From: a virus
Strand: one strand, 5' to 3'
DNA length: 34,884 bases
IMG/VR virus record: IMGVR_UViG_3300032462_000034
Coordinates: 1 to 34,884 of that record
Positions 1,772-11,316 of this stretch are shown here, piece by piece. Under the pieces are notes generated by a model. That model was not told where the DNA came from, made no database searches, and was given only the letters and a program-made list of their open reading frames with translations. Position numbers and translations under genes: made by a program. Each line of letters opens with the position of its first letter. Within the stretch, counting starts at the first letter, position 1.

Positions 1772-1785
1772 TATTAATCAATTGA

Positions 1786-1841
1786 TTCATTAACACTTCA
1801 TATAAAAAACGAACGTTTTCGAAATTAGTTGTATATGTATA
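1786..1841 (+). promoter_or_regulatory. Bipartite promoter-like element, copy 3 (before the structured RNA)
   Basis: A degenerate copy of the elements at 359 and 1008. TTCATTAACACTTCAT begins at 1786 and TTAGTTGTATATGTATA at 1825-1841. The box-to-TATAT distance is 46 bases, against 48 in the other two copies. No protein gene follows for 1.1 kb, so transcription from here would start about where the structured noncoding region begins. Confidence 0.5.
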
Positions 1842-1844
1842 TAC

Positions 1845-2840
1845 ACAAAAGGGAACGAAAGTTTTAGTTCTTTAAAATAATGATAATCGGGTTGTTTGGG
1901 ATCCAATCTCTTCGGAGATAAAGAATATGACATCGCAAGGTGTTGAAAGGGCGTAGTCTACACTATCCCGCCAGAGTTTACTTTGGTTCATCTAAACAAG
2001 CGTACGCTTTACATCTGGTCGACAGATGTTCTCCTGTAACGGGGAAGTAAAGAGAAAAGTATGTATGTTAAGTCTTTTGACAAAGATATGAATTTGGCTA
2101 ACAGTGGAATTCAGAATAGAAGTGGGAACTTCACCTAGCATAATCCAACATATGAACTCTAATAGAGTAAGACGTAGATTGAAGTCTGAGCATCACCAAT
2201 GTAAAGGCAGAAAATCAATATTAAAGGTAAACGGGTTATTTAGATAATCCTAGTAATCTTGAAATATCGCACAGTAGGGTTGGTAGCCCGAAACGTATAA
2301 AGGCGTGTTGTATTCTGTATCTCAAACGGATATGGAGCGACTGGTGAAGCACGCCTTAGTAGAAACACAAAATAGCTTAGTGGTTAAGCATTTTCTTTAT
2401 CAGAAAACATCGGTGGTTCAATTCCATCTGTGAAACGCAAAGACTTCACCGGTAGTAACTAATCAAATTGCCTAATCCTTCACCATTTATGGAATGAAGG
2501 CTTATTGAAACTCGCAAGGTTGACGTAAGTTGATTGAAATCTGCATCCAATCCCATCGCTGGGACCAACTGCTCGCAAGGTAGGGAGAAGGACGATAATC
2601 GAGAATGGTTACTATGACAAGTGAATGGCCTCACTTTATAAAAAGGCGGCAATGTTGCTAGACATATTCGATGAATATGTGGATACGTTCTTAACGATAG
2701 GGTCGCACCGACTCGGTACGGGAACAAAGGTAGTAATGGAATATACGTAATCTCAGTATACAATTTGCGGAAGAAGAGTTAATAGAACTCGCCTGGCTAC
2801 CAGTTAGGAGAAGATGGCGCGCTCCCATCCTTCCGCTCTT
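1845..2840 (+). ncRNA. Large structured noncoding RNA, GOLLD/ROOL-like candidate
   Basis: About 1 kb without a credible gene but full of local and long-range complementarity. Hairpins include 1906-1919 (5 bp closed by a C-UUCG-G loop), 2011-2029 (7 bp), 2119-2132 (GGGA loop), 2156-2168, 2233-2250 (7 bp), 2477-2500, 2551-2564 and 2662-2680 (8 bp). A 7 bp helix 1977-1983/2045-2051 encloses two stems. A pseudoknot spans 2302-2453. The 3' domain is closed by 2767-2773/2830-2836 and holds three hairpins (2776-2790, 2793-2803, 2813-2829). The 9-mer TCGCAAGGT, which presents a GCAA tetraloop, occurs three times (1933, 2512, 2573). Promoter copy 3 precedes it and a terminator at 2933 follows. Giant ornate RNAs (GOLLD, ROOL) are known from phages and are often near tRNAs; I assign the class by resemblance only and could not compare with a covariance model. 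Exact ends are uncertain. Confidence 0.7.
2366..2432 (+). other. tRNA-like fold inside the structured RNA
   Basis: The D-arm is GCTT/AAGC (2375-2378, 2386-2389). The anticodon arm is TTTTC/GAAAA with a 7-base loop TTTATCA (2391-2407). A 4-base variable loop follows, then a T-arm GGTGG/CCATC with loop TTCAATT (2412-2428). Only 4 bp of acceptor stem (CACA 2366-2369 with TGTG 2429-2432) can form, with a 5-base linker before the D-arm instead of two, and there is no CCA. In standard register the anticodon would be TAT. It is either a degenerate tRNA or a tRNA-mimic domain. It lies between the two halves of a pseudoknot, so it is more likely a domain of the large RNA than a free tRNA gene. Confidence 0.55.
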
Positions 2841-2930
2841 AATCAATCAAATGTTAAATAATTATTTAACATTAATGTTAAATAACATGTTGGGTTTGGT
2901 TCATTTTTCATGAAAAACATTTGATTGATT
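2841..2930 (+). repeat. Nested inverted repeats after the structured RNA
   Basis: Perfect 15-base arms AATCAATCAAATGTT (2841-2855) and its complement (2916-2930) flank an 18-base perfect palindrome, GTTAAATAATTATTTAAC (2853-2870), and a second TGTTA/TAACA hairpin. The 11-mer ATGTTAAATAA is directly repeated at 2851 and 2875. It could be a long terminal stem-loop of the RNA, a processing site, or a protein-binding site. Confidence 0.75.
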
Positions 2931-2932
2931 TG

Positions 2933-2967
2933 AAGGTAGTAGTCTATGGTGGGCTACTACCTTTTCC
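2933..2967 (+). terminator. Intrinsic terminator ending the structured RNA
   Basis: A perfect 10 bp stem, AAGGTAGTAG (2933-2942) with CTACTACCTT (2954-2963), an 11-base loop, then TTTTCC. It separates the noncoding region from the gene that starts at 2984. Confidence 0.8.
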
Positions 2968-2983
2968 TATTTAAACAAATATA

Positions 2984-3778
2984 ATGATTATACATCAAAT
3001 TCCGAAAAGTACAGCGATTCAGTTTATACATCAATATCATTATTCCAAGATCTTGCCTAGACTCACAAAACATTATCTTGGGTTTTATGAAGATGATATA
3101 TTAGTCGGAGTTGTTACATTAGGATGGGGCACACAGCCACTTGGAACGATTAATAAATTGTTTCCAAATCACAATCTGACCACACTGGATTACTTCGAAA
3201 TTGGAAAGATGTGTTTTCTGCCTGAAAAAAACCAATCTAATTTTGGGTCTCAGGCAATGGCTCTTCTTATTAAATACATAAAGGCAAATCTGAATATTCA
3301 GTTTCTCTATACATTGGCTGATGGAATAATGGGTAAATGTGGATACGTTTATCAAGCCTCCAATTTCAAATATTTGGGGTACTTTAAGACCGATGTTTAT
3401 ATGGATAAGAAAACAAAGGAAAAGGTACATCCAAGAAGTGCCAGAAAGTTATGTGAAGAAAACGCAATCTTTTCGAAAAGAGAAAAGATATTTTGGCTAA
3501 CACATGATTTTTGTGAATCAAAGGGTATTGACAGAATCCGGGGATTAATGTTTCGGTATATGTACCCATTGAATAAACAAAGTAAACGCATACTTAATTC
3601 ATATGACGCTTACAACAATAATAAAAATCCAAAAGAAGGAGATTTGTTATTTGAAGTTAGGTCAACTAATGGAAAGTATGTTGAAATAGACCAACCAGAA
3701 TTCAATATGAATGAATTTGGGCATAATTACCAAAAGTGGGGAAGTAATTCTTCAAATAAATTCTTTACAGGAGTATAA
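2984..3778 (+). CDS. Mom-like GNAT-fold DNA modification protein
   Basis: A 264-residue protein resembling the phage Mu Mom family, whose members modify adenine in phage DNA so that host restriction enzymes cannot cut it. Visible family-like segments are HYSK near residue 19, a strand pair 'YLGFYEDDILVGVVTLGWG' (31-49), 'SQAMALLIKYIK' (89-100) and the most telling 'LADGIMGKCGYVYQASNFKYLG' region (111-132), which matches the Mom-type 'ADxxxGHxGxxYxAxNF/W' pattern. The C-terminal 100 residues are basic and may contact DNA. It directly abuts the dCMP deaminase gene (TAA then ATG), so the two are co-translated. The family call rests on motif memory; the substrate is unknown. Confidence 0.6.
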   Translation: MIIHQIPKSTAIQFIHQYHYSKILPRLTKHYLGFYEDDILVGVVTLGWGTQPLGTINKLFPNHNLTTLDYFEIGKMCFLPEKNQSNFGSQAMALLIKYIKANLNIQFLYTLADGIMGKCGYVYQASNFKYLGYFKTDVYMDKKTKEKVHPRSARKLCEENAIFSKREKIFWLTHDFCESKGIDRIRGLMFRYMYPLNKQSKRILNSYDAYNNNKNPKEGDLLFEVRSTNGKYVEIDQPEFNMNEFGHNYQKWGSNSSNKFFTGV

Positions 3779-4295: not shown

Positions 4296-4565
4296 ATGAA
4301 TTGGATTTTCGGAATATTAATCGTATTATTAATAGTAGGGGTTGTGTATTTATACACAATAATAGATGCGTTGACTAACACGGCTACTAAAATAAATAAT
4401 GATTTAAATAAGGCTAATACAGCAGCCAATGGTAATTTTAACACGTTGCATAATGCATCGAATAAATTTATCAGAGATTTAAGGGCAACCAATATGAAAG
4501 TTGCTAGATTGGAAACGGGAGTAAAACGAATGAATAATGAAAACAAAGGAAGATCAGAAATATAA
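4296..4565 (+). CDS. Small single-pass membrane protein
   Basis: An 89-residue protein. Residues 2-24 (NWIFGILIVLLIVGVVYLYTII) form one hydrophobic transmembrane segment. The rest is a polar, Asn/Lys-rich helix with heptad-like spacing, so it is probably an inner-membrane protein with a cytoplasmic coiled coil. It begins 10 bases after the deaminase stop and overlaps a possible upstream start of the RNA ligase gene. No family recognised. Confidence 0.65.
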   Translation: MNWIFGILIVLLIVGVVYLYTIIDALTNTATKINNDLNKANTAANGNFNTLHNASNKFIRDLRATNMKVARLETGVKRMNNENKGRSEI

Positions 4566-4572
4566 TTCAATT

Positions 4573-5559
4573 ATGAATGTTAGGAACTTTTCTAAAAGTT
4601 GCGAATTGCTTGGACCTAATATTACAAATGAATTACTTGATTTAAAATGTATAGTTACTGAAAAGATTCACGGTGAAAACTTTAGAGTCGGAGTAACCGA
4701 AACCGGCGATCCGTTTATTGGACAGCGGAATCAAATATTTTATGTAATGTACACTGGAGATATATCTGAACCGACGTGGGTCGGGCAATCAGCCCATCCA
4801 AATTGGAATAAATTGACGAGTGCAGCACGGAATAAAATTGATAAACTTTTGGGAGTTTGCGTAATGAAGTTCGAAGAAACAGGCACGGGGTTTGTGTTCT
4901 TTGGAGAATTATGTGGCAACGGGTTGAAAACTGGATTTACTTACCCTTGGGACGGGCTGTCTGTATTGTACTTCGATGTTCTATTTAAAGAACGGGATGA
5001 GGATGCTCACTATCTCGCCCACCGTGATGCGTACTATTGGATGGATTATTTTAACGTACCAAGAGTACCGGTTGTAGCGACCCAAAATACAATACGAGAA
5101 GCATTAGCGCTAGACGTTGAAGCAATGAAATCAGAAGTTACAGGTGACGGGTTTATTGAGGGAGTAGTAATCAAACCCGTAGATAGATTACTGGTTAATG
5201 CTATTTGGCATAGCGATCATCGTTTGATTATCAAACATAAAACAGAGCGATATTCAGAAGAAGCACATAGAAAAGTAAAAGTTACTGTTGCTGATATTAA
5301 TTCTCCATTTTGTGAGTTTGTCACGATTGCTAGGATTGAACATGCAATTGAAAAAATAGAGGAAAATGGTAATCCAATTGAATACGAAATGAAAGACATG
5401 CAATATATTCGAAACGAAGTGGTTCAAGATATTGAGCGAGAAGAAAATAATGGATATCCATTAACACCAGAGGACAATAAAGCTTTGAATAAGTTTATAC
5501 CCAAGGTTTATGCCGAATTACTTAGAGAAAAAACAAATGCCGCATTTGGAATTATTTAA
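4573..5559 (+). CDS. RNA ligase (Rnl2-like nucleotidyltransferase)
   Basis: An ATP-dependent ligase of the Rnl2-type family, which seals nicks in RNA, for example in tRNAs cut by host anti-phage nucleases. Motif I is TEKIHGEN (residues 29-36), with Lys31 as the predicted adenylated residue. Motif III is FFGELCG (109-115), motif IV EGVVIKP (196-202) and motif V LIIKHKT (218-224). All the hallmark lysines are present, so it should be active. I chose ATG 4573 because it lies just after the previous stop; an in-frame ATG at 4537 would add 12 residues and overlap the membrane gene. The C-terminal 100 residues are helical and probably set RNA specificity. Confidence 0.85.
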   Translation: MNVRNFSKSCELLGPNITNELLDLKCIVTEKIHGENFRVGVTETGDPFIGQRNQIFYVMYTGDISEPTWVGQSAHPNWNKLTSAARNKIDKLLGVCVMKFEETGTGFVFFGELCGNGLKTGFTYPWDGLSVLYFDVLFKERDEDAHYLAHRDAYYWMDYFNVPRVPVVATQNTIREALALDVEAMKSEVTGDGFIEGVVIKPVDRLLVNAIWHSDHRLIIKHKTERYSEEAHRKVKVTVADINSPFCEFVTIARIEHAIEKIEENGNPIEYEMKDMQYIRNEVVQDIEREENNGYPLTPEDNKALNKFIPKVYAELLREKTNAAFGII

Positions 5560-10962: not shown

Positions 10963-11316
10963 GGGCTCGAAACGGTAATCGACAGATGGCCGTTGGGTGA
11001 GAGTGCAAGTTGTCTAGAAAAGACATAAACATCAAAAAACAAATAAATGCAGAAGAAATTTCTAATTTTACCTTCGAAGATGCTATGGCACTCGTGGGGA
11101 CTCCAGTAGAAGAATTAGTGTAAACTAACGGAGTCTTAACCAGACTTCTACAACCATTCGAATTCCGAGTAGAATTAAAATGTTCGGTACGTTAAACAGC
11201 GCATAACGATAAATTCACTGTGGCTTTGTTAGTTGGGAAGAAACTAAATAAACTTGTGAATGACTTTTATCTGAACATCATACTGCACGAGGGTTCGAAT
11301 CCCTCCGAGTCCACTA
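10963..11316 (+). ncRNA. ssrA: Transfer-messenger RNA (tmRNA)
   Basis: tmRNA rescues stalled ribosomes by acting first as tRNA, then as a short mRNA for a tag. The acceptor GGGCTCG (10963-10969) pairs with CGAGTCC (11306-11312), with one G-U. The T-arm is GAGGG-TTCGAAT-CCCTC (11289-11305), with perfect stem pairing. The D-like segment contains ATCGACAG, and CAGAT at its end can pair with ATCTG near 11270, forming helix H2. Resume codon GCA at 11049 opens a 24-codon tag ending at TAA 11121; it begins AEEISN and ends TPVEELV. A GGAGTC/GACTTC hairpin follows, fitting a pseudoknot region. The discriminator is A11313; CTA follows instead of CCA, so CCA would have to be added. The length of about 350 nt is normal. 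tmRNAs are known in some phages (for example the Bxz1-type mycobacteriophages). Confidence 0.88.

Follow-up and report, generated by a model that had tools for sequence, protein, structure and literature searches.

The window analyzed here, 34,884 nucleotides of viral DNA, is a single linear IMG/VR virus record (IMGVR_UViG_3300032462_000034), and a second contig, IMGVR_UViG_3300007523_000058, is identical to it across the RNA region described below. Among the proteins encoded in the window are a baseplate wedge subunit, an RNA ligase, a dCMP deaminase, a Mom-like protein, a peptide deformylase and an SbcC-like protein. The wedge protein is nearest to those of Microcystis phage Mel-JY01 and the Flavobacterium 'immuto' phages (∼40% identity), and the window is therefore a fragment of a T4-like myovirus. 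The RNA ligase (4537–5559, phrog_548) has no tblastn match among annotated phages. A sister phage, L375 (IMGVR_UViG_3300035034_001514), is syntenic, with relatives of ten or more neighboring proteins in the same order at ∼37–78% identity.

A 1.2-kb stretch of the window (1772–2983), between the end of a gene at 1771 and the start of the Mom-like gene at 2984, contains no convincing gene. The sole ORF overlapping it is a 105-residue antisense frame (2446–2763). Neither the window nor L375 has a long sense frame in the RNA region. A blastn search of this region against phage records returned no match. The Mom-like DNA modification protein (2984–3778) lies directly downstream of the RNA unit and is absent from that place in L375. 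Among 50 contigs with relatives of this protein, a GOLLD RNA was present only in the twin contig of the window; thus, GOLLD is not tied to the Mom-like gene, and this neighbor-gene route to further relatives was abandoned.

The RNA had been proposed to be a GOLLD, a ROOL or a member of a new class. A cmscan search against Rfam settles this choice, since the full GOLLD model (RF02032) matches at 174.3 bits, above its gathering score of 150 bits. ROOL, OLE and HEARO have no Rfam match in the window; for ROOL, there is none at the gathering score or at E-values up to 1. That the region is a GOLLD RNA, and so not a new class, is close to certain. The likeness in size and phage location also holds: positions 1850–2760 comprise ∼910 nt, above 800 nt, on a contig with phage proteins, and the RNA spans about 1850–2837 (∼1,000 bases) when the 3′ cloverleaf is included. 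In GOLLD RNAs, the 3′ domain is conserved and the 5′ domain divergent, and a variable linker sometimes holds tRNAs; cryo-EM of the env-38 GOLLD revealed a 14-mer cage of D7 symmetry whose interior contains the linker (PMC12286853).

Table 1. Features of the GOLLD unit in the window (L375, sister phage).
Feature	Positions	Strand	Evidence
Upstream block AACACTTCAT ... TGTATATGTATATACACAAAAGGGAA, probable promoter region	1792–1855	+	Conserved in L375
GOLLD 5′ domain, tRNA-linker subclass	1850–2299	+	Leave-one-out profile; 48/63 pairs; split-sample test; L375 compensatory changes
UUCG-capped hairpin, AUCUC-UUCG-GAGAU	1906–1919	+	Sequence; two double compensatory changes in L375
GCAA-capped hairpin	1929–1944	+	Covaries across 50 members and in L375
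GOLLD 3′ domain (full RF02032 model)	2300–2759	+	174.3 bits; E 5.4e-49; model 1–416
tRNA-like insert in GOLLD linker	2366–2433	+	RF00005, 40.0 bits; anticodon position UAU; acceptor 4 bp; no CCA
Long-range pseudoknot helix 2468–2472/2648–2652, crossing 2452–2464/2603–2615	2468–2652	+	Covariation Z 10.9–18.6; all pairs formed in window
Loop-linker pseudoknot 2619–2624/2631–2636, crossing 2628–2630/2645–2647	2619–2647	+	Covarying pairs 2619–2636, 2620–2635, 2629–2646, 2630–2645
Cloverleaf, apparently derived from tRNA-Gly	2767–2837	+	Geometry; alignment with L375 tRNA-Gly(TCC); 6 double compensatory changes
A+T-rich long palindromic hairpin, phage-specific	2841–2930	+	Fold of 2840–2975 (hairpin and terminator together), z −6.8
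Intrinsic terminator	2932–2967	+	Stem 2932–2964, 15 pairs; T-rich tail; L375 counterpart

Relatives were collected with a pattern across two conserved GOLLD segments, which gave 119 viral stretches. Of the first 80, 77 were identified as GOLLD by RF02032, two of these scoring just under the curated cut-off. Additional GOLLDs came from a second scan that allowed longer spacings and included annotated phages, and a profile filter resulted in 134 non-redundant GOLLD RNAs. A stringent class-specific pattern had zero matches, and the pattern AAAGCAAAAGTCT...CTAAT was rejected as its matches were almost all due to chance.

Alignment of 130 GOLLD 3′ domains (effective number 63) supports the fold of this region, as nearly all of the top covarying pairs are formed in the window. 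Both crossing helices are among the strongest covarying columns, and the long-range pseudoknot noticed initially is indeed formed in the window across a nested helix. The smaller, loop-linker pseudoknot is probably the published L22-J17/22 pseudoknot (PMC12286853). The symmetric kissing loops (B8/B9) were also considered, as was the intermolecular kissing pair B7 (L20-J13/15), for which covariation is uninformative because the J13/15 linker is nearly invariant.

The less conserved 5′ domain of ∼420 nt expected in a GOLLD RNA was located by homology to 55 other GOLLDs. An iterative profile search found one type of 5′ domain in these and the window, 56 in total, and a profile built without the window matches it at 1865–2362 (E 1.5e-47), including ∼63 nt of the 3′ domain. 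RNAalifold predicts 63 pairs from 50 members excluding the window, most of which show three to five types of standard pair, and 48 of the 63 form in the window, even though it was not part of the alignment. When the members were split, 74–76% of the structure from one half was formed in the other, compared to 38–45% with the partners slid by 1–3 columns; the corresponding values for the window are 64% and 34–51%. The alignment folds with about −75 kcal/mol, compared to about −1 for column-shuffled alignments. The UUCG and GNRA tetraloops reported earlier are present, and the pairing of both hairpins is preserved in L375 by compensatory changes.

The GOLLD RNA of L375 is 79% identical to that of the window over 1,099 aligned positions. 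A joint fold of 271 pairs, derived from both sequences, shows 31 double compensatory changes and 35 on one side only, and none of its pairs is broken; slid controls have 0–4 double changes. A fold derived from the window only still shows 24 double changes, with 22 of its 289 pairs broken in the comparison with L375.

The RNA had also been credited with its own promoter and terminator. The terminator is well supported by its 15-pair stem and T-rich tail, and the RNA of L375 is followed by a similar terminator that shares its GGTAGTA/TACTACC arms. The promoter claim stands in part: no sigma-70 site upstream of the RNA scores above chance, and this type of promoter was rejected, but a block ending in TGTATATGTATATACACAAAAGGGAA is conserved in L375. 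Here, the sequence between the two upstream blocks varies between the phages while the blocks themselves are kept. As the upstream block and the terminator arms are common to both phages, the unit of upstream signal, RNA and terminator is conserved. Of the proposed ends, 1845 is about right, with conservation starting near 1850; at 2967 it is the terminator, and not the structured RNA, that ends. The palindromic hairpin preceding the terminator has no convincing counterpart in L375.

The embedded tRNA-like fold noticed in the initial annotation is located in the GOLLD linker, at the same insertion point as other GOLLD linker tRNAs. It differs from a functional tRNA by its 4-bp, rather than 7-bp, acceptor stem, and it was missed by ARAGORN, which found no canonical tRNA in the window; the two elements of apparent tRNA origin are both inside the RNA unit. 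Linker tRNAs were recognized by ARAGORN in 44 of the 134 GOLLDs; their position is nearly fixed, and ∼20 different anticodons were called. Of two GOLLDs from cultivable phages, that of Phaeobacter phage MD18 has a linker tRNA, and in that of Acinetobacter phage Herod none was found. Linker tRNAs follow the 5′ domain type, being found in 42 of the 56 members of the subclass of the window, compared to 2 of the other 78; several members of this subclass have unrecognizable or non-tRNA linkers. Relative to free tRNAs of the same loci, linker tRNAs have fewer acceptor pairs (mean 5.4 versus 6.7, p 3e-13, unique sequences) and rarely encode CCA (7% versus 63%). In their D, anticodon and T stems, as in U33, the TTC T-loop and the GG D-loop, they cannot be told apart from free tRNAs; this contrast with the acceptor is partly due to ascertainment, since a linker needs good D and T arms to be called by ARAGORN. 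Free tRNAs passing the same filter show no weak acceptors. These comparisons suggest that the acceptor stems of linker tRNAs have been selectively weakened. The insert of the window is an extreme case, with the elbow motifs kept and only 4 bp in the acceptor.

The closed 3′ multi-hairpin domain described initially exists at exactly 2767–2836; however, it appears to be a tRNA-derived cloverleaf downstream of the GOLLD model, rather than a part of it. Its dimensions are exactly those of a tRNA (7; 2; D arm 15; 1; anticodon arm 17; 4; T arm 17; 7), and its score of 21 may be compared to shuffled sequences, where scores of at least 19 occur at 7e-4 per position. The cloverleaf of a functional tRNA is thus present, and the TTC T-loop and GG D-loop are replaced by CGCGCTC and AATAG, respectively. 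Neither the Rfam tRNA model nor ARAGORN detects a tRNA at 2767–2836. The last G of GTAATCTCAG precedes the start of the element by 11 nt, and 19 of 132 GOLLD loci have a tRNA starting 11–21 nt after this G (mode 12). Cloverleafs with abnormal T-loops are also found in L219 (+9) and L378 (+21). The corresponding position in L375 is occupied by a canonical tRNA-Gly(TCC), which aligns across the whole element, including CCAGTTAGGAG. All 24 pairs are kept between the two, six of them by double changes, and the elbow loops are lost in the window. We read 2767–2836 as a probable former tRNA-Gly whose function was lost while its shape was retained.

Several other RNA elements were observed in the window and at other GOLLD loci. 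ARAGORN did not find the tmRNA of the window (10963–11316), which matches RF00023 at 60 bits. The tag frame of this tmRNA, AEEISNFTFEDAMALVGTPVEELV followed by a stop, is identical at 19 of 24 positions to that of L375, AEETSEFTYEDAMALVGASVEELV followed by a stop, and does not end in the usual ALAA-type degron. Other tmRNA genes near GOLLD are in L161 (2591–3007), L162 (2744–3159), L290 (978–1364), L305 (2044–2453) and L320 (2720–3090), as well as in L240, L254, L278, L393 and L445, and a permuted tmRNA directly follows GOLLD in DSS3_MAL1 and MD18. By ARAGORN, tmRNAs are near GOLLD in 7 of 133 loci, compared to 2 of 79 and 0 of 67 controls, and with such small numbers the excess is suggestive only. 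In L363 (334–400) and L364 (837–912, minus strand), a Pistol self-cleaving ribozyme precedes the GOLLD model by ∼300–360 nt in the same orientation, as if setting the 5′ end of the RNA. L343 has a Group I intron near its GOLLD locus (2859–3082).

The initial observation is thus confirmed and its interpretation supported. We consider it likely that the region is a full-length GOLLD RNA, forming its own transcription unit in a T4-like myovirus, with a putative cage, a tRNA mimic in the linker and a 3′ cloverleaf that was once a tRNA-Gly. The occurrence of tRNAs in GOLLD linkers is already known. The weakening of the acceptor, the link to a 5′ subclass and the tRNA-derived 3′ cloverleaf were not found in the accessible literature, which excludes most subscription papers, including the first description of GOLLD in 2009.

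The linker and 3′ elements could instead be decaying, now functionless, tRNA genes caught in or beside GOLLD by tRNA islands, where it often sits. The wide variation of linker anticodons would fit such an origin, as would the mycobacterial GOLLD that contains a pseudo-tRNA for which no expression was found (PMC6582537). However, decay should affect all arms and the linker set is weak in the acceptor only, the 3′ cloverleaf retains 24 of 24 pairs relative to the sister tRNA-Gly with six double changes, and linker tRNAs are concentrated in one 5′ subclass (42 of 56 versus 2 of 78). We regard decay as a less likely alternative. GOLLD might also act as a carrier precursor, from which RNase P and tRNase Z excise the linker tRNA, freeing a phage tRNA and separating the domains. 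Many linker tRNAs are near-canonical with intact elbow motifs, but weaker acceptors and rarer CCA than in free tRNAs of the same loci, the 4-bp acceptor of the window and a diversity of anticodons that includes CTA and TCA make this quite improbable. Slightly more improbable still is that the 3′ cloverleaf is an ordinary structural domain of GOLLD with no kinship to tRNA: it has no T-loop or D-loop consensus and escapes both tRNA searches, yet it has exact tRNA dimensions at a tRNA position (+11) and aligns column by column with the canonical tRNA-Gly of L375, including CCAGTTAGGAG. Protein coding, for which the 105-residue antisense ORF might be invoked, or chance folding of the hairpins is very improbable in view of the covariation in held-out sequences and L375 and the lack of a long sense frame in either phage.

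For the preferred reading, a caged GOLLD with a tRNA mimic, we propose the following model. By homology to env-38, the RNA of the window likely forms a cage; for the tRNA-linker 5′ subclass the cage model rests on homology. As in the cryo-EM structure, monomers would form a closed 14-mer with no need of protein, in which the 5′ domain makes up the cap, the 3′ domain the ring, and the linker points into the hollow. The insert would be displayed within the cage as an uncharged tRNA mimic, and its elbow and anticodon arm may bind a tRNA-binding partner, such as the ribosome, a tRNA enzyme or a nuclease. The weak acceptor and missing CCA would block RNase P, tRNase Z and aminoacyl-tRNA synthetases; the insert would be neither cut nor charged, so that the 5′ and 3′ domains would stay joined. 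The 3′ cloverleaf, presumably without a decoding role, might define or protect the 3′ end, either through RNase P cleavage or as a stable cap. The absence from the cloverleaf of CCA and of the T-loop motif, both of which assist RNase P, counts against the former. More generally, and tentatively, one GOLLD subclass may have co-opted tRNAs, as an uncleavable, uncharged mimic with intact elbow and anticodon arm in the cage and, in this phage, as a purely structural cloverleaf made from a tRNA-Gly at the 3′ end, with the cage possibly capturing or hiding tRNA-binding factors or the ribosome. The evidence for the mimic is comparative only.

Few natural RNAs are known to form cages from RNA alone, and GOLLD is one of them. 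A testable clue to its function is the tRNA-shaped linker retained by one subclass, in which the decoding end is normal and the charging end weakened; the likely partner is therefore one that binds tRNA elbows or anticodons. The window and L375 offer what may be a natural before-and-after view of a tRNA turning into a structural element of a large RNA.

The RNA of the window shares with GOLLD RF02032 and env-38 the full 3′ domain model, pseudoknots, a separate 5′ domain, a variable linker after the first 3′ hairpin, phage origin and a length above 800 nt. Its 5′ domain belongs to the tRNA-linker subclass, and unlike env-38 it has a tRNA-like insert with a 4-bp acceptor, an apparently tRNA-Gly-derived cloverleaf immediately 3′ and its own terminator. 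ROOL is likewise a large, ornate phage RNA that forms an RNA cage, but the window RNA has no ROOL match in Rfam. The mycobacterial GOLLD also carries a tRNA pseudogene within the GOLLD gene, although it belongs to another phage lineage and no 3′ cloverleaf was described there (PMC6582537). The L375 GOLLD occupies the same place in a related phage, with the upstream block and terminator arms conserved; it differs in the absence of the Mom-like gene and in that its linker tRNA-Leu(TAG) and 3′ tRNA-Gly(TCC) are still recognizable by ARAGORN. Beyond phages, the arrangement, known here from sequence alone, resembles the tRNA-like 3′ processing of MALAT1/mascRNA type in eukaryotes, where a tRNA-like cloverleaf likewise directly follows a non-coding RNA.
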